The position numbers and the translations under genes are program-made. DNA of 42,570 nucleotides, from contig JAHEEX010000006.1 in assembly GCA_024640465.1 (NCBI GenBank), positions 1-42,570 of the forward strand, in the 5' to 3' direction. Source of the stretch: Sphingobacteriales bacterium. Its GTDB lineage: Bacteria; Bacteroidota; Bacteroidia; Chitinophagales; Chitinophagaceae. The notes beneath the pieces were generated by a model. The model made no database searches. It was not told the origin of the DNA and worked only from the letters and a program-made list of their open reading frames with translations. Of the stretch, positions 23,807 through 42,569 are shown one piece after another; positions within the stretch are counted from its first letter, which is position 1; the number at the start of each line of letters is the position of its first letter.

Positions 23807-24880
23807 ATGTACAAAGTAACATTCAACAACAAAAACAAGGTTTTTTTCAATACGCTTAAAGCATCTGTAGACAAATATTTCGAGGAAAATAATCTTAAAA
23901 AAACAGGAAACTGGCGCCTTTATCTCAAAACCGCCATACTTATCCCTGCAGCAGTCGGTATCTATTTAATGCTGCTTTTTGTGCCAATGCATTGGGCAAT
24001 AGCCGTTTCCCTTTGCGCCATTTTAGGTGTATCGATGGCTTCCATTGGATTCAATGTGATGCATGATGCCTGCCATGGCAGTTTTTCCACCCGTTCATGG
24101 GTTAATGAAGTTTTTGGATTGACGCATAATTTCCTGGGGGGTAATGCATTCCTCTGGAAACTGAAACATAACATTGTGCATCATACCTATACGAATGTAG
24201 ATGGCATTGATGATGATATCAATAATATGCCTTTTATGAGGGAATGTAGTACACAGCCATGGAAGCCGATGCATAAGTTTCAGAGCTATTATATGTTTAT
24301 CCTATATGGATTTACATCTGTTTTTATGTTCTTTATGGATTATATCAAGTATTTCACCCGTAAAGTATATACTACACCTATTACCAAAATGGAAACTAAG
24401 GACCATGTCCTTTTCTGGACCGGTAAATTATTTTTCATCGCTGTATATATCGTAATACCTATAGTTACGGTGGGCTGGATTGCATGGATCATTGGATTCA
24501 TTGTTGTTCAATTTGCACTTGGGCTAACACTTGCCCTGGTATTCCAGTTAGCACACGTAGTTGAACATGCTGAATTTGAAGCGGCAGGTATTGAGCCTAA
24601 GAAGATTGAAAATGAATGGGCCATTCACCAGGTGAAAACAACCGCCAACTTTGCTGCAAAAAATAAAATTGTGACCTGGATGGTAGGCGGACTTAATTAC
24701 CAGATTGAGCACCACTTGTTTCCCCGGATCAGTCATATCCATTATCCTGCTTTGAGTAAAATCGTTCAGGATACCTGTCAGAAATTTGATCTCCGTTATA
24801 ATTACTTTCCAACAACACGTTCTGCTATTGCTTCTCATTTCAGGTTTATGAAAGAGATGGGGCAGCGGCCGGCGGCATAG
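23807..24880 (+). CDS. Membrane fatty-acid (acyl-lipid/acyl-CoA) desaturase
   Basis: A 357-residue integral membrane di-iron desaturase that introduces a double bond into fatty acyl chains and so tunes membrane fluidity. All three histidine boxes are present: HDACH (86-90), HNIVHH (121-126) and QIEHH (299-303). The QxxHH third box is typical of the front-end/linoleoyl-CoA-desaturase-like class, but the cytochrome b5 domain is missing. Four or so membrane helices are visible (for example TAILIPAAVGIYLMLLF, FFIAVYIVIPIVTVGWIAWIIGFIVVQFALG). Regiospecificity cannot be read. The leader of about 135 nt is long for this window. A heptad tract and a terminator follow the stop. Confidence 0.9.
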   Translation: MYKVTFNNKNKVFFNTLKASVDKYFEENNLKKTGNWRLYLKTAILIPAAVGIYLMLLFVPMHWAIAVSLCAILGVSMASIGFNVMHDACHGSFSTRSWVNEVFGLTHNFLGGNAFLWKLKHNIVHHTYTNVDGIDDDINNMPFMRECSTQPWKPMHKFQSYYMFILYGFTSVFMFFMDYIKYFTRKVYTTPITKMETKDHVLFWTGKLFFIAVYIVIPIVTVGWIAWIIGFIVVQFALGLTLALVFQLAHVVEHAEFEAAGIEPKKIENEWAIHQVKTTANFAAKNKIVTWMVGGLNYQIEHHLFPRISHIHYPALSKIVQDTCQKFDLRYNYFPTTRSAIASHFRFMKEMGQRPAA

Positions 24881-24885
24881 GGAAG

Positions 24886-24934
24886 AAGGAATATTTAATA
24901 AGGAATAAAGAATAAGAAATAAGGAATTAGAAAG
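24886..24934. repeat. Heptad repeat tract E, after the desaturase stop
   Basis: Seven units in exact 7-base register start six bases after the stop: AAGGAAT appears three times (24886, 24900, 24921) among close variants such as AAAGAAT and AAGAAAT, ending with TAGAAAG. This is the cleanest tract in the window and runs directly into the terminator stem at 24931. Confidence 0.8.
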
Positions 24935-26190: not shown

Positions 26191-27969
26191 ATGAAAATTT
26201 TTCTCGCACAGCAGAATTATCATATTGGAAATTTTGAGGCCAATACTAAGCATATTATTGGCGCTATCCAGGAAGCTAAAAAGGCTGGTGCCGAACTGGC
26301 CGTTTTTACGGAATTAAGTGTCTGCGGTTATCCACCCCGTGATTTCCTGGAGTTTGAGGACTTCATCCAGCAATGCGAAGCATCCATAAATCAGATCAAA
26401 GCACATACTTCAGATATAGCAGTCATTGTTGGGGCACCGGCGAGGAACCCAAAAGCAGAAGGAAAGGACCTTTTCAATGCAGCCTGGTTCTTATATCAAG
26501 ATGAAGTCAAAGCCATTGTGCATAAAACGCTTCTACCTACCTACGATGTATTTGATGAGTACCGTTATTTTGAACCTGCATTTGAATGGAATGTGATTTC
26601 CTTTAAAGGGAAAAAGATAGCACTTACCATTTGTGAAGATATATGGAACCTCGGGGATAATCCTTTATACAGGATTTGCCCTATGGATCAGCTGATGCCA
26701 CAGAAGCCGGATATAATGATCAATATATCGGCATCACCTTTTGACTATGATCATGATGAGGATCGAAAAGAAGTGGTTCGTTTAAATTGTTTGAAATACA
26801 ATCTCCCCATGTTTTATTGCAATGCCGTTGGCTCGCAAACTGAGATTGTTTTTGATGGAGGCAGCCTGGTTTGTGATGCGGCAGGGAAAATCGTTAAAGA
26901 GATGAAGTACTTTGGGGAGGACTATTGTACAATCGACAGTAGCCAGTTGACAGTTGACAGTTTACAATTGACCGGGGAGAGCAGCACGTCAACCGTCAAC
27001 CGTCAATCGTCAACCGAGATAGGTCAACTGTCAGCTGTCAACGGTCAACCGATTATGCTGGAAAAAGACATGCGGGTGAAGAAGATCAAAGACCCGCATA
27101 TGATCATTCCATACCTGACGGCGGAACATAATATAGCGCAGATTTATGCCGCTTTAATCCTGGGCATAAAGGATTATTTTTCCAAGATGGGATTTACGAA
27201 AGCCATCCTGGGCAGCAGTGGGGGTATAGATAGTGCAGTTACCCTGGCACTGGCCTGTGAGGCACTGGGTGCCGAAAATGTGCGGGCGGTTTTGATGCCT
27301 TCGCATTTCTCCACCTCACATTCAGTTGACGATGCCGTTGCGTTGAGTAAGAACCTGGGCAATCCTTATGATATCATCCCTATAAAAAATGTGTACGACA
27401 GTTTCCTGGATACGCTGTCCCCGTTATTCAAAGACTTACCTTTTGGGATAGCCGAAGAAAATATCCAGAGCAGAACAAGGGGTAACCTGCTGATGGCGAT
27501 TTCAAATAAGTTTGGCTATATCCTGTTGAATACTTCCAATAAGAGTGAACTGGCAACAGGTTACGGTACTTTATACGGAGATATGGCCGGAGGTTTGAGT
27601 GTTTTGGGAGATGTATATAAAATGCAGGTTTTTGCTTTGGCAGAATACATCAACAGGGATCGCGAAATCATTCCGCGAAACATAATAAGTAAGCCGCCGT
27701 CTGCTGAGCTCCGGCCTAACCAGAAAGACAGCGACAGCCTGCCTGAATATGCTATTCTGGACAAGGTATTATTCCAATATATCGAAAGAAGGGAGGGGCC
27801 AAAGGAGATTATCGCTTTGGGTATTGATGCAGCCCTGGTAAAACGGGTTCTAAAACTGGTCAATACCAATGAGTATAAACGAAACCAGTTTTGCCCGATC
27901 ATTCGGGTGAGCACCAAAGCATTTGGGGTTGGCCGCAGGATGCCGATAGTTGGGAAGTATCTTGGATAA
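26191..27969 (+). CDS. nadE: Glutamine-dependent NAD+ synthetase with an in-frame repeat insertion
   Basis: A 592-residue enzyme that amidates nicotinate adenine dinucleotide to NAD+, using ammonia released from glutamine. The N-terminal nitrilase-type glutaminase shows Glu41 (FTELSVCGYPPRDFLE), Lys112 (VHKTLLPTYDVFDEYRYFEP) and Cys148 (ALTICEDIWN). The C-terminal synthetase has the PP-loop ILGSSGGIDSAVTLALA, LLNTSNKSELATGYGTLYGDMAGG and the end VNTNEYKRNQFCPIIRVSTKAFG. Between the domains, residues about 249-288 (SSQLTVDSLQLTGESSTSTV...) are encoded by inverted 7-bp repeats. They are low-complexity and make the protein about 40 residues longer than the roughly 550 I expect. The catalytic and nucleotide-binding residues are intact, so it is probably functional. 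Confidence 0.93.
   Translation: MKIFLAQQNYHIGNFEANTKHIIGAIQEAKKAGAELAVFTELSVCGYPPRDFLEFEDFIQQCEASINQIKAHTSDIAVIVGAPARNPKAEGKDLFNAAWFLYQDEVKAIVHKTLLPTYDVFDEYRYFEPAFEWNVISFKGKKIALTICEDIWNLGDNPLYRICPMDQLMPQKPDIMINISASPFDYDHDEDRKEVVRLNCLKYNLPMFYCNAVGSQTEIVFDGGSLVCDAAGKIVKEMKYFGEDYCTIDSSQLTVDSLQLTGESSTSTVNRQSSTEIGQLSAVNGQPIMLEKDMRVKKIKDPHMIIPYLTAEHNIAQIYAALILGIKDYFSKMGFTKAILGSSGGIDSAVTLALACEALGAENVRAVLMPSHFSTSHSVDDAVALSKNLGNPYDIIPIKNVYDSFLDTLSPLFKDLPFGIAEENIQSRTRGNLLMAISNKFGYILLNTSNKSELATGYGTLYGDMAGGLSVLGDVYKMQVFALAEYINRDREIIPRNIISKPPSAELRPNQKDSDSLPEYAILDKVLFQYIERREGPKEIIALGIDAALVKRVLKLVNTNEYKRNQFCPIIRVSTKAFGVGRRMPIVGKYLG
26946..27050. repeat. Heptad repeat element F inside nadE (three arms of four 7-bp units)
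   Basis: Left arm 26946-26973: four units of the type GTTGACA. First right arm 26988-27015: four units of the type GTCAACC. Second right arm 27023-27050: four more, GTCAACT to GTCAACC. The right units are the reverse complement of the left unit core (GTCAAC / GTTGAC). The left arm and the second right arm pair over about 27 positions with about four mismatches. The whole element is open in the nadE frame. Confidence 0.85.
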
Positions 27970-38879: not shown

Positions 38880-41375
38880 TTAGAAAGACAATCTGAAACT
38901 ACCAAAAACCCCAAAGTTTTTATAACTCTCCTCAGGCTTGGGTGTAGGCATAATGCGCCAAACCAGGTCAAGCCTGAAAAAGCGGAAAATATTATCTACG
39001 CCGGTTCCTATTTCCATATAGGTTTTGCCATCCAGGTTAACAAAAGGATTGCTATTGGTGATGTTCAGCGCTTTGTTGGCTTCCGTCATATCTCCCCAGA
39101 TCATTTTCATGTTCCAGAACTGCCTGAATTTAAGGAAACGATTAAAAGGGATCAATCGGAAAATACCATTGCCAATATTATGTTCGATCTGCATACCTGC
39201 ATAACGGTCCATAATATATTCATACCGGTTCATTAAGTTAAATGCATAGCTATTGTAATAATAGATCTCATTACCCGGCGCGATATTTAGCAACATGTAT
39301 GGTAAAGTACCGTAAACCTTACCAGCATATAAGTTGTAATAAAAACTTCCGAAAGGAGAGATTTTCTTATAATCGGAAACGGCCACATTAATTTTTGTAT
39401 ACTGGTAAGCACTGCTGAATACACCGGGAATACCCCGTGAAATCCTGAATTCCGTTATGGGATAATCGCTGCCAAGGCTGGTGCGGAAGAAATTATTTTC
39501 AAGGTATTTTTCCAGGTAGGCGAAACGAAGTTTCAGGGAAACTTCAAAATTATTGAATGGAGTACCGGATTCCGGCATTGGATAATCATCTGCAGTAGGC
39601 AGGTTCAGCAAAGGGTTGAATATTTTTCGGTTAGCCGTAACCGCAAATGAAAATCCACTCTTCCATTCCTTGAAATATTCCAGCATCTGGTTGTTTATCC
39701 GGATCAGTTTGATGGGAACCTGGTTTTTGCGGATGGCCAAAGTGAAGATATTGTCGAAGCTAACGTCATCATAATAGGTTTGTCCGAAATCAATATCATC
39801 CTTCCACATGGCGTGGATACGGTGCCTGGGGTTCCTGTTAAACTGGTAAATCGTTTCAAATTTACCTTTTAATGCTTTATCGGTAAAGCCATATGCCAGG
39901 TAACCTGAAAAGTAAATTTTCTTGCTGAATTTATAATTTGTACCCAGGTCGAACCGCACACGGTAGCCTTCATGTACGTTATAACTCATCCAATTGAACC
40001 AGGGTCCGATTTGGTAATTACCTACATTCTTATAACCTGTTGCAATGAAATTGATCCATTCTGTATAGCTTTTAAATGCGGGTGATTTCAACAGGGTGTC
40101 TGCCATTTGGTAAATGGCTTTTTCATTTTTGCTGAGTTCTTCATGCCGGTTACTGACCCAGAAGCTGTCGCTTTTGGTCATAGCTTCGCCACTGAGGTCA
40201 ACGGATTCTTTTAGTTTTTCATTTTCAAGTTTAGCCAGAACAGAAGTATCGTTAATGGTGATGTTTCGATACGTAGTAGTTTTCCTTCCTACAAAATTTA
40301 ATGAATTTTTACCCAGCATGGCGAAATCTGCAACGAATTTATCTTTAGATAGAAACCAGGTAGTATCATTTACCAGTTGATATTCCTGCACCAGGCTAAG
40401 TTTTTCAATAAAGTTTACATTGGCCCCGGGCGAGAGGCGGAGGTTCATTTTTTGCACTGCATAGCTGGAATCTGCGATCCATGCATCACCCTGGAACGTA
40501 TTGCTTCCCTTATTCTTCGGATAAAAAACAAGGTGATAGTATCTTTTGCCTGCGATGAACTGTGTATCGGGGACTTTATAAGTATAGTATGCGTCACCGT
40601 TATCACTCAATGGGCTCACGAACTCAAGGTCAAATACCGGCAGGAAATTATTATACACATTTACATTCTGATACATACCACCTAATAATTTGGAGAAGCT
40701 TTCATTCTTAATGCCAATGGTTTTATTGGCCCTGATCACTTCCTTCGTTTTCCTCGGTGCTGATTTAAAGTAGTAGTCGGATAAGGTCTCTGTAAGGTAT
40801 AACGGTAATATGGGATGCTCCTCAGATGCTGTATCAACATTTTCGAGTAAGAACTTAAAAGGTTTTGGCGGCAGGATACCTTTTTGCATCTTATCCTTAT
40901 TCACTTTGTTTAAGTCTATTTCCAGTTTATTATACAGTTCGTAACTGAAATTGGAGAAGCGTGTTCTGTCGTTCCGTGGTTTATTTTTTACGATTCTTTT
41001 CCAGATCAGCAGTCCCCGGTTGATCTTTCCTTTTACAATAACTTCATTCGTCTTCCGACCTCTTTCCATAGAGATTTCCAGGCTTATGCTGTGAAGTGAA
41101 GTATCGAGAACGATGATCTTATCTTCAAAACCGGCATAAGTAATTACGAGAGTATCTGTTGGCCATTTGGCCAGGTTGAAGGTGAAATTGCCAGCAGAGT
41201 CACTGACTTTTGCAAATTGTGTTTTTTTGAATTGAACAGAGGCAAAGGGGATACGCTCATCGCTATGGATATCTTTGATGATGCCGTTTAGCTGAACATG
41301 CTGTGCAAGTACAGATCCGGAAAGGCATAAAAAAGCCATGCAAAAAAGTAAAAGTGCTAACCCCCGCCCATTCAT
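38880..41375 (-). CDS. DUF5686 family outer-membrane protein with carboxypeptidase-like regulatory domain
   Basis: An 831-residue outer-membrane protein. The signal peptide (LALLLFCMAFLCLSGSVLAQ) is followed by a carboxypeptidase-regulatory-like (CarbopepD_reg_2) beta-sandwich (QLNGIIKDIHSDERIPFASVQF to about residue 110). The DUF5686 region starts near TNEVIVKGKINRGLLIWKRIVKNKPRND. The C-terminal 400 residues are barrel strands (YKFSKKIYFSGYLAYGFTDKALKGKF) with a terminal aromatic (FGVFGSFRLSF). Unlike SusC it has no TonB plug. Role unknown; envelope biogenesis or export is a guess. The frame is open to 41489, but ATG 41375 starts the signal peptide. It lies downstream of carB with a heptad inverted repeat between. 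Confidence 0.85.
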   Translation of the reverse strand: MNGRGLALLLFCMAFLCLSGSVLAQHVQLNGIIKDIHSDERIPFASVQFKKTQFAKVSDSAGNFTFNLAKWPTDTLVITYAGFEDKIIVLDTSLHSISLEISMERGRKTNEVIVKGKINRGLLIWKRIVKNKPRNDRTRFSNFSYELYNKLEIDLNKVNKDKMQKGILPPKPFKFLLENVDTASEEHPILPLYLTETLSDYYFKSAPRKTKEVIRANKTIGIKNESFSKLLGGMYQNVNVYNNFLPVFDLEFVSPLSDNGDAYYTYKVPDTQFIAGKRYYHLVFYPKNKGSNTFQGDAWIADSSYAVQKMNLRLSPGANVNFIEKLSLVQEYQLVNDTTWFLSKDKFVADFAMLGKNSLNFVGRKTTTYRNITINDTSVLAKLENEKLKESVDLSGEAMTKSDSFWVSNRHEELSKNEKAIYQMADTLLKSPAFKSYTEWINFIATGYKNVGNYQIGPWFNWMSYNVHEGYRVRFDLGTNYKFSKKIYFSGYLAYGFTDKALKGKFETIYQFNRNPRHRIHAMWKDDIDFGQTYYDDVSFDNIFTLAIRKNQVPIKLIRINNQMLEYFKEWKSGFSFAVTANRKIFNPLLNLPTADDYPMPESGTPFNNFEVSLKLRFAYLEKYLENNFFRTSLGSDYPITEFRISRGIPGVFSSAYQYTKINVAVSDYKKISPFGSFYYNLYAGKVYGTLPYMLLNIAPGNEIYYYNSYAFNLMNRYEYIMDRYAGMQIEHNIGNGIFRLIPFNRFLKFRQFWNMKMIWGDMTEANKALNITNSNPFVNLDGKTYMEIGTGVDNIFRFFRLDLVWRIMPTPKPEESYKNFGVFGSFRLSF

Positions 41376-41457
41376 CCGGCAAAAATACTGTTTGATTGGG
41401 GTAATAACGTTAAGAAGGAGGGAAAAGTTGGAAAGAGGGATATACGCAGAGAGGAAA

Positions 41458-41537
41458 GAGGATAGAGGGCAGAGGGTAGAGAACAACAAATAAAATCAAG
41501 TGATTTGGCTGTCCTCTAACCTCTGTCCTCTGCCCTC
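41458..41537. repeat. Heptad repeat element G: inverted 27-nt arms between carB and the DUF5686 gene
   Basis: Left arm 41458-41484 is made of GAGGATA, GAGGGCA and two similar units. Right arm 41511-41537 is made of GTCCTCT, AACCTCT and two similar units. The arms are complementary at about 22 of 27 positions around a 26-base loop. The design (four 7-bp units per arm, 27 nt) is the same as in the nadE element F, though the unit sequence differs. It starts about 12 bases past the carB stop on the minus strand. Confidence 0.8.
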
Positions 41538-41549
41538 CGTCAAAAAAGA

Positions 41550-42569
41550 TTACTTACTCAAATGCATACTCCGCTCTTTATACAAGGTCCTGAAATACGG
41601 ATCACGCAGGTCTTTTATAAACCGTATGGCTTCTCCGGTTGATTTCATTTCCGGCCCGAGCTCTTTACTTACACCTGGAAATTTATCAAAACTGAAAACG
41701 GGTTCTTTAATAGCAAATCCTTTCAGCTTTTTTTCATATTTGAAATCCGTGAGCTTATGTGTGCCGATCATTATTTTGGTGGCAATGTTCAGATAAGGTA
41801 TCTGGTAGGCTTTAGCGATGAACGGAGTTGTTCTGGATGCACGCGGGTTGGCTTCTATCACAAAAACTTTTCCATCTTTAATGGCAAACTGGATATTGAT
41901 GAGGCCGCGGATATTCAGTGCCCGTGCAATTTTTTCGGCGGCATATTCCATCGATGTAACTTCCAGAGGTGTCAGGTTAAAAGCCGGCAATACCGCATTA
42001 CTATCACCGCTATGTATACCTGCCGGTTCAATATGTTCCATTACACCCATTACGTGAAAATTCTCTCCGTCAAATATGGCATCGATCTCTGCTTCCTGGC
42101 ATCTGTCGAGAAAATGATCAATCAGAATCTTATTATCCGGCAGGTGTTTTAGCAGGCTGACCACTGCTTTCTCCAGGTCTTCATCATTTATAACGATCCG
42201 CATTCTTTGTCCGCCTAATACATAAGACGGCCTTACCAGAACAGGATATCCAACTTGTTTAGCTACTTCAACTGCGTCTTCAACCGTGTAGGCCGTTCCA
42301 TAATTCGGGTAGGGTATACCGAGATCTTTCAGCATATCACTGAAACGTCCGCGGTCTTCAGCGATATCCATATTATCATAGGACGTTCCAATTATTTTTA
42401 TTCCTTTCTTGTGTAATTTCTCCGAAAGTTTCAATGCAGTTTGTCCGCCCAATTGTACTATAACGCCTTCCGGTTTTTCATGTTCTATGATTTCCCATAG
42501 GTGTTCCCAGAATACGGGTTCGAAATATAGCTTATCGGCCATGTCGAAATCGGTGGAAACAGTTTCCGG
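41550..42569 (-). CDS. carB: Carbamoyl-phosphate synthase large subunit, C-terminal part (partial)
   Basis: The C-terminal 339 residues of the ATP-dependent large subunit that makes carbamoyl phosphate for pyrimidines and arginine. The frame enters from the right edge (PETVSTDFDMADKLYF) and carries the second ATP-grasp half: VIVQLGGQTALKLSEKL, YPVLVRPSYVLGGQRMRIV, MEHIEPAGIHSGDSNAVLP, FVIEANPRASRTTPFIAKA and FPGVSKELGPEMKSTGEAIRF. It then ends after FRTLYKERSMHLSK, so the 130-odd-residue C-terminal allosteric (MGS-like) domain of enteric CarB is absent. I recall short CarB of about 940 residues in Bacteroidota, so this is probably a lineage trait and not a break. The 5' part is outside the window. 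Confidence 0.92.
   Translation of the reverse strand, partial: PETVSTDFDMADKLYFEPVFWEHLWEIIEHEKPEGVIVQLGGQTALKLSEKLHKKGIKIIGTSYDNMDIAEDRGRFSDMLKDLGIPYPNYGTAYTVEDAVEVAKQVGYPVLVRPSYVLGGQRMRIVINDEDLEKAVVSLLKHLPDNKILIDHFLDRCQEAEIDAIFDGENFHVMGVMEHIEPAGIHSGDSNAVLPAFNLTPLEVTSMEYAAEKIARALNIRGLINIQFAIKDGKVFVIEANPRASRTTPFIAKAYQIPYLNIATKIMIGTHKLTDFKYEKKLKGFAIKEPVFSFDKFPGVSKELGPEMKSTGEAIRFIKDLRDPYFRTLYKERSMHLSK

Follow-up and report, generated by a model that had tools for sequence, protein, structure and literature searches.

The stretch of DNA analysed here (the window) comprises 42,570 nucleotides and carries on its plus strand, at 26191-27969, a nadE gene encoding a glutamine-dependent NAD+ synthase of 592 aa (NCBIfam NF010588, 647 bits at a cut-off of 479). 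In the product, the Pfam domains CN_hydrolase (residues 5-249) and NAD_synthase (319-566) are joined by a linker whose coding sequence contains two arrays of 7-bp units. The left arm (26932-26973, plus strand) was delimited from the sequence and by TRF and consists of six units of the GTTGACA type in the stop-bearing orientation, ATCGACA, GTAGCCA, GTTGACA, GTTGACA, GTTTACA, and ATTGACC, of which the first two are degenerate. It is followed by the spacer GGGGAGAGCAGCAC (26974-26987, plus strand) and by the right arm (26988-27050, plus strand; sequence, TRF), in which nine units of the GTCAACN type stand in register, namely GTCAACC, GTCAACC, GTCAATC, GTCAACC, the degenerate GAGATAG at 27016-27022, GTCAACT, GTCAGCT, GTCAACG, and GTCAACC. 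If pure, an array of this right-arm type contains no stop in any of the three forward frames. The whole heptad stretch (26932-27050) measures 119 bp and encodes residues 248-287; in a six-frame check it was open in the nadE frame alone, with stops in the other five.

An earlier note on this DNA, made from the sequence alone, had described a heptad inverted repeat lying in frame in the domain linker of nadE, and this is confirmed by the sequence, TRF, and shuffling. Of the three four-unit arms it distinguished, however, the two right-hand ones form a single nine-unit array, and the left one runs two degenerate units further upstream. The encoded residues given as about 249-288 come near the actual 248-287, or 252-287 when counted from 26946 to 27050. 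Matches to GTTGACAGTTGACA with up to three mismatches number 12 in the window at a shuffled mean of 3.2, and none of 100 shuffles reached 12. The lag-7 periodicity of the linker is 0.90, a value reached by none of 1000 codon shuffles, and lags of 5, 6, 8, and 10 were ordinary in the same test. The Rfam search of the window returned no match.

The nadE message is predicted to fold over this stretch with -44.4 kcal/mol (z -3.55; one of 200 shuffles equally stable). According to the dot-bracket count of the fold, the stem is formed by 26942-26962 on the 5′ side and 27026-27045 on the 3′ side (plus strand), with an unbroken run of 17 pairs from 26946 to 26962, which fits the hairpin considered possible in the earlier note. 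On the protein level, the best solved NAD synthetase aligns with NadE at residues 2-246 and 307-589 and not over the heptad stretch. An AlphaFold model built from 28 sequences has its longest run of pLDDT <50 at 257-294 and no helix or strand at 260-301, which agrees with the flexible linker proposed before; because the mean pLDDT is 66.5 and 559-592 and other parts are low too, the model backs disorder of the linker weakly. Most likely, the insert does nothing for NadE except lengthen a disordered joint, and the predicted hairpin may be a side effect.

The genome to which the window belongs (G000) is a 3.80-Mb draft in 330 contigs, and the repeat units, which would have to occur elsewhere if a dispersed repeat is involved, are abundant in it. 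The exact motif GTTGACNGTTGAC occurs 120 times and its reversed pattern, itself partly a rotation of the repeat, 14 times; for GTTGACA a reversed control is useless, as reversing this unit only rotates it. When one mismatch was allowed, GTTGACAGTTGACA was matched 59 times and GGAGTCGGGAGTCG 57 times, the reversed control of the latter giving 0. The sequence of this genome that was examined holds 37 arms of 2 to 14 units at 26 loci, of which 22 are without a spanning coding frame, some of them extending into the edge of a gene, and four are spanned by one, as judged by open frame and codon use. Where opposed arms lie less than 200 bp apart, the order is GTTGAC and then GTCAAC in eight of eight pairs and never the opposite, three of these pairs being coding copies. 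The layout itself varies, with an opposed 119-bp arm pair in nadE, yet a single arm at many loci; arms are opposed but variable in length and unit, and no fixed terminus is seen. Some copies contain a core, AACAGCC...GGCTGTT, for which the genome has 15 sites (reversed control 0). Eight of them, including the one in metG, have a GTTGAC arm no more than about 30 bp away, and the other seven have no adjoining GTTGAC arm among the matches listed. The expectation that every copy would contain this core was rejected, since the copies in nadE and in the E1 gene described below are without it, the spacer 26974-26987 being unrecognisable as such. In 20 stretches of this genome (224 kb), TRF detected 4.0 period-7 arrays per 100 kb, and in sampled relatives 0.5 (G085), 6.0 (G233), 3.5 (G139, other units), and 1.7 (G234), part of the G233 and G234 stretches having been picked near known matches.

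Several other repeats were observed alongside. A palindromic family at five loci of the same genome (L417, L418, L420, L421, and L422) has ends like GCCACGGAATACAC and GTGTATTCCGTGGC and AACAGCC...GGCTGTT in its middle; it has no lag-7 array beside it at L418, L420, and L422 and some at L417 and L421. In the window, a second opposed heptad-like pair, AGAGGNN on the left and CCTCTGN on the right, occupies 41430-41541 at the boundary of two minus-strand ORFs (38880-41489 and 41550-42542), its left arm lying within the start of the first ORF. A degenerate 7/14-bp array of the ATAAGGA type (24877-24933) stands right after an ORF ending at 24880 and is followed by what appears by eye to be a terminator.

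A Y1 transposase was considered as the mover of the repeat and rejected: the single Y1 gene found in the genome is preceded by a different palindrome, and the 3.3 kb read around it contain no GTTGAC arm. At this locus (L171, contig C323, about 139-256 and 1490-1908), two copies of the palindrome CATGGTTCGTG...CACGAACCAT lie upstream of the gene, possibly as its REP partner, and heptads of the GAAAATC type are found at positions 1-70. The flanking genes are ones which we take to be a DAHP synthase/chorismate mutase gene and aroB. REP sequences are palindromic, dispersed, and mostly located outside genes; unlike in a REP/RAYT system, the palindromes beside the Y1 gene are not the GTTGAC repeat.

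A lag-7 scan of the loci from this genome yielded 69 arrays of any unit, of which six are coding in the sense that an open frame runs across them and shows coding-like codon usage to either side. All six lie in four genes, so that nadE is one of at least four such hosts in the genome. The others encode MetG (NF001100, with a score over the cut-off; the locus read cuts the gene start), LpxB (TIGR00215, likewise over the cut-off), and an E1 alpha-beta fusion of a 2-oxoacid dehydrogenase, to which the subunit models gave matches short of their cut-offs. Regarding the coding share, the window copy and the loci drawn with GTTGACA are a biased sample; in the window plus the 20 stretches, two of 26 arrays are coding. 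In three of the genes the copy is located between recognisable domains or subunits, and in lpxB in a segment of variable length among orthologues.

To compare segment lengths, orthologue loci were taken as the best matches among 41 genomes, with the best 30 per search. The MetG segment has 86 aa as against 43-62 in the same genus (29/29 loci), the LpxB segment 93 aa as against 35-43 (21/29 loci, eight short ones having been dropped), and the E1 segment 63 aa within a range of 54-71 (22/22 loci). The NadE linker has 60 aa as against 37-55 in 28 same-genus rows, 25 of which have 37-40 (one fragment, L195, was left out). The absence of residues 249-288 in relatives, which the earlier note proposed to check, is therefore only partial, since the relatives possess a linker of their own at this place. 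The same linker sequence was looked for in homologues and was found in none of those aligned, so that the note is not refuted in this respect. Judged from these alignments, the metG and lpxB segments are clearly lengthened, E1 has a variable linker with differing content, and nadE is intermediate. The nadE array spans 40 residues, yet the linker is merely 5-23 residues longer than in the 28 same-genus rows. Because of this small gain, and because the E1 segment is not longer than several orthologues, these two genes cannot be explained by simple insertion into a linker that otherwise stayed as it was; one has to suppose that linker sequence was replaced or that the linker was variable beforehand.

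Some of the inserts resemble a copy elsewhere in the genome or each other. The metG insert is 88% identical over 83 bp, core included, to a copy on contig C66 that is not spanned by a coding frame. The nadE and E1 inserts share 81% over 91 bp, and both translate as DSSQLTVDS...VNRQ(S/P)STEI. In the lpxB insert, a GAAAATC-type left arm and AACAGCC are combined with a right arm of the GTCAACN type that is read in its open orientation. That the best single genome match to the nadE insert is the E1 insert, with the same translated motif in both, would be expected if gene conversion or copying between resident copies had spread the repeat from gene to gene without transposition. As a full account we regard such copying as rather unlikely, since it explains neither the first entry into genes nor the core-bearing metG copy, and it is compatible with part of the explanation preferred below. 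Birth in place is another alternative, in which replication slippage would have expanded a heptad that arose by chance in a linker free of constraint, independently in each gene and with no mobile copy being involved. Imperfect tandem arrays, arms of anything between 2 and 14 units, and units that differ between species would all agree with such an origin. However, slippage yields direct repeats and not opposed arms of one polarity (8/8), and slippage by 7 bp breaks the frame; nor does it account for one genome having an identical unit in four genes and at 26 loci, or for the 83-bp match of metG to a copy outside genes, which includes the non-heptad core. We therefore consider birth in place to be decidedly unlikely.

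Each frame of a pure GTTGACA array receives one TGA per 21 bp. In the left arm of nadE, the first in-phase site (26941-26943, plus strand), located in a degenerate unit, reads AGC (Ser251), and the second (26962-26964, plus strand) reads TTA (Leu258). The other three clear units of the arm retain their out-of-phase TGA. The previous statement that 26962-26964 is the only in-phase TGA site and the only one at which TGA is lost is therefore correct for the four-unit arm, but not when the two upstream units are included: 26941-26943 is in phase too, and the out-of-phase site 26934-26936 of the degenerate unit at 26932 reads CGA. With the degenerate units counted, TGA has thus been lost at an out-of-phase site as well. 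In the E1 fusion as well as in metG, GTTCACA occupies the in-phase position, giving TCA, and TGA is retained by the other three units; in nadE of the relative L092 the in-phase unit is GTTTGCA (TTG). In this genome, each of the three genes with a clear four-unit arm in the stop-bearing orientation has its in-phase site altered. For a count over the four coding copies (nadE, E1 fusion, metG, and L092 nadE), units with at least 5/6 match to GTTGAC were used, a threshold that leaves the L092 in-phase unit and the degenerate nadE units outside; the in-phase site was altered in 3/3 and the out-of-phase site in 0/12 units (Fisher 0.0022). Looser thresholds (minimum match 3 or 4) were not used because units of the E1 right arm then get mixed into the left arm.

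Among the arms outside genes, seven of 152 units are without TGA, two of them being exact variants found in genes, and a stop-free copy may therefore have come ready-made. The stop that the note described as removed is indeed altered, but this need not be due to a mutation after arrival. The stop pattern shows a requirement for the gene to stay open and is silent on whether the change came before or after arrival; it is partly survivorship, since open genes alone are visible.

In nadE linkers of relatives, strict heptad arrays were found in three of 116 cases (L067, L092, and L111). Same-genus orthologues of the four genes are without heptad arrays at these joints except for MetG of L349, which has a different heptad. 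This locus (metG of G210, another species of the genus) carries a GGAATCC array in the same MetG linker, and the MetG linker is thus not heptad-free in the genus. The whole coding sequences of the four genes (117 rows for nadE, 23 for E1, 30 for metG, and 22 for lpxB) contained 11 lag-7 arrays in linkers and two elsewhere, compared with one in linkers and six elsewhere for lags 5, 6, 8, 9, and 10 summed. As the linkers had been picked for arrays in the own genome, its rows were excluded for a fair count. Relatives alone have four lag-7 arrays in 18,423 bp of linker versus two in 312,369 bp elsewhere (binomial 1.3e-4). The four comprise nadE of L067, L092, and L111 and metG of L349, and the two elsewhere are one motif in two rows; the E1 (22) and LpxB (21) orthologues gave no lag-7 array. 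On a tree of 115 NadE proteins from which the linker had been left out, four changes are required to place the four strict heptad rows, and well-supported branches force at least three of these changes; it is a quick tree, in which 42 of 112 inner branches have <80% support. One earlier entry is possible for L067 and L111 because both belong to one small clade.

Heptad units vary between species. Like in the own genome, the linker unit of L092 is also the unit of its genome (G233), which has many GTTGACA arms and no core. With one mismatch allowed, GTTGACAGTTGACA is matched 57 times in that genome; 17 of the matches are exact, and a single array accounts for 13 of the exact ones. The unit tested for L067 is rare in the L067 genome, with six matches, one of them nadE itself. 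Eight of 19 core sites in G195 were read; six have a lag-7 array in the scanned stretch (one at its edge only) and two have none, and the arrays near the core use other units, e.g., ACGAACA. The core sites inspected in G085 (2/6), G175 (1/6), and G234 (1/9) have no heptads beside them.

A loose lag-7 test of the nadE linkers, the own row counted, gave nine of 115 rows at p<=0.05 and seven at p<=0.01, the nine being the own row, L067, L092, L111, L147, L118, L112, L110, and L081. The A-rich Niastella rows L118, L112, and L110, which resemble lysine codons, were set aside by eye as heptad cases, and so was L081. The nadE linker of L147 shows loose GTCNNNN heptads in seemingly opposed arms, below the strict threshold, and is likely a further heptad case. 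In an inverted-repeat test of the same linkers, five of 115 rows reached p<=0.01. Inverted symmetry is weak evidence in relatives, since two of these five (L163 and L082) are heptad-free and L067 and L147 are absent from the 14 best rows.

These comparisons also bear on a selected function, according to which message hairpins acting in pausing or RNase cleavage, or tuned linkers, would have been kept as useful. The predicted stem (z -3.55) and the recurrence in linkers of housekeeping enzymes are in line with it, but most same-genus orthologues are without arrays, the heptad-bearing nadE linkers differ from one another in unit and sequence, and the modelled linker is of low confidence without helix or strand at 260-301. 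A selected function thus appears very improbable.

In our view, the nadE stretch very probably represents a copy, resident in frame, of a heptad-armed palindromic repeat that is spread over the genome and persists in tolerant joints, similar to the Rickettsia palindromic elements (RPEs). The family has tandem 7-bp arms; where two arms are paired, the left one is as a rule of the GTTGACN type and the right one of the GTCAACN type, and in some copies they enclose the AACAGCC...GGCTGTT palindrome. Copies would be made by movement or copying of the element, and one would survive in a gene only where the joint tolerates extra polar residues, the length keeps the frame, and the in-phase unit already is without TGA or soon loses it. 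The spreading repeat that the earlier note saw entering nadE is supported, its movement being what we infer: the analysis turned up neither an empty site nor a target duplication, nor, in a search for Y1 enzymes, a transposase that would move it.

Heptads are distinctive for their arithmetic. As 7 and 3 have no common factor, a pure array gives one heptapeptide in every frame of a strand, the stop-free VNxQxST on the GTCAACN strand and VDx*xLT on the GTTGACN strand. The phase of arrival would therefore hardly matter; what counts would be the total length modulo 3 and, in the GTTGACN arm, a single codon in every 21 bp, a rule that we infer from the genetic code and the four genes. Beyond this genome, the chances seem about even that heptad-armed palindromic elements are a class in Chitinophagaceae-type Bacteroidota which repeatedly makes new protein linkers and which, owing to its coprime unit and the polar heptapeptide that results in any frame, is near pre-adapted for interdomain joints of essential enzymes. 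If so, a change of one codon in every 21 bp of a single arm would suffice for entry.

In the open-licence literature, searched with terms other than the host genes, no description of heptad arrays in Chitinophagaceae was found. Among bacterial elements, MITEs are short inverted-repeat families for which single in-frame fusions to genes are reported; the opposed arms of the present repeat recall their layout, and no target duplication, defined termini, or parent transposase came to light for it, the transposase search covering Y1. The heptamer TAACTGA forms arrays in Beggiatoaceae, Cyanobacteria, and some Bacteroidetes, mostly in intergenic regions, in which one strand is closed by stops in each of its three frames while the opposite strand encodes a heptapeptide without interruption, as far as the accessible text of that report goes (PMC4679880). 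The same text places forward repeats at the ends of ORFs, which it regards as following necessarily from their stops, and reverse ones inside some ORFs, and foresees tolerance between the subunits of modular proteins (PMC4679880). The repeat described here likewise consists of tandem heptamers, mostly intergenic, with one closed and one open strand, but its unit is GTTGACN (reverse complement NGTCAAC), its arms often form opposed pairs, and, in contrast to what the accessible text says of TAACTGA, the stop-bearing orientation occurs inside genes with the in-phase site altered.

The closest likeness in layout is that to RPEs and the Wolbachia palindromic elements, which according to the available portions of the reports are palindromes of ~100-150 bp found in intergenic regions and in frame in conserved genes (PMC2229807, PMC10969869, PMC3767692). 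For a Rickettsia guanylate kinase bearing an RPE, the portion available states that the protein is made and active (PMC2229807). Shared features are a dispersed palindromic repeat of that size range (119 bp in nadE) with copies outside genes (22/26 loci) and in frame in conserved genes (4/26). In contrast to RPEs, the arms are tandem 7-bp arrays giving the same heptapeptide in any frame, the units differ between species, and the host, judged by the relatives of its NadE, belongs to Chitinophagaceae-type Bacteroidota and not to Rickettsiales; the likeness is one of layout and not of sequence comparison. As far as these partly available sources indicate, it is chiefly in the obligate intracellular bacteria Rickettsia and Wolbachia that palindromic repeats have been described in frame within conserved genes. 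Four copies in one Bacteroidota genome, together with other heptads in the same linkers of some relatives, suggest a wider route from selfish repeats to protein linkers, and the underlying simple rule, a unit of 7 coprime to 3 with one codon at stake in every 21 bp, lends itself to searches of any genome.
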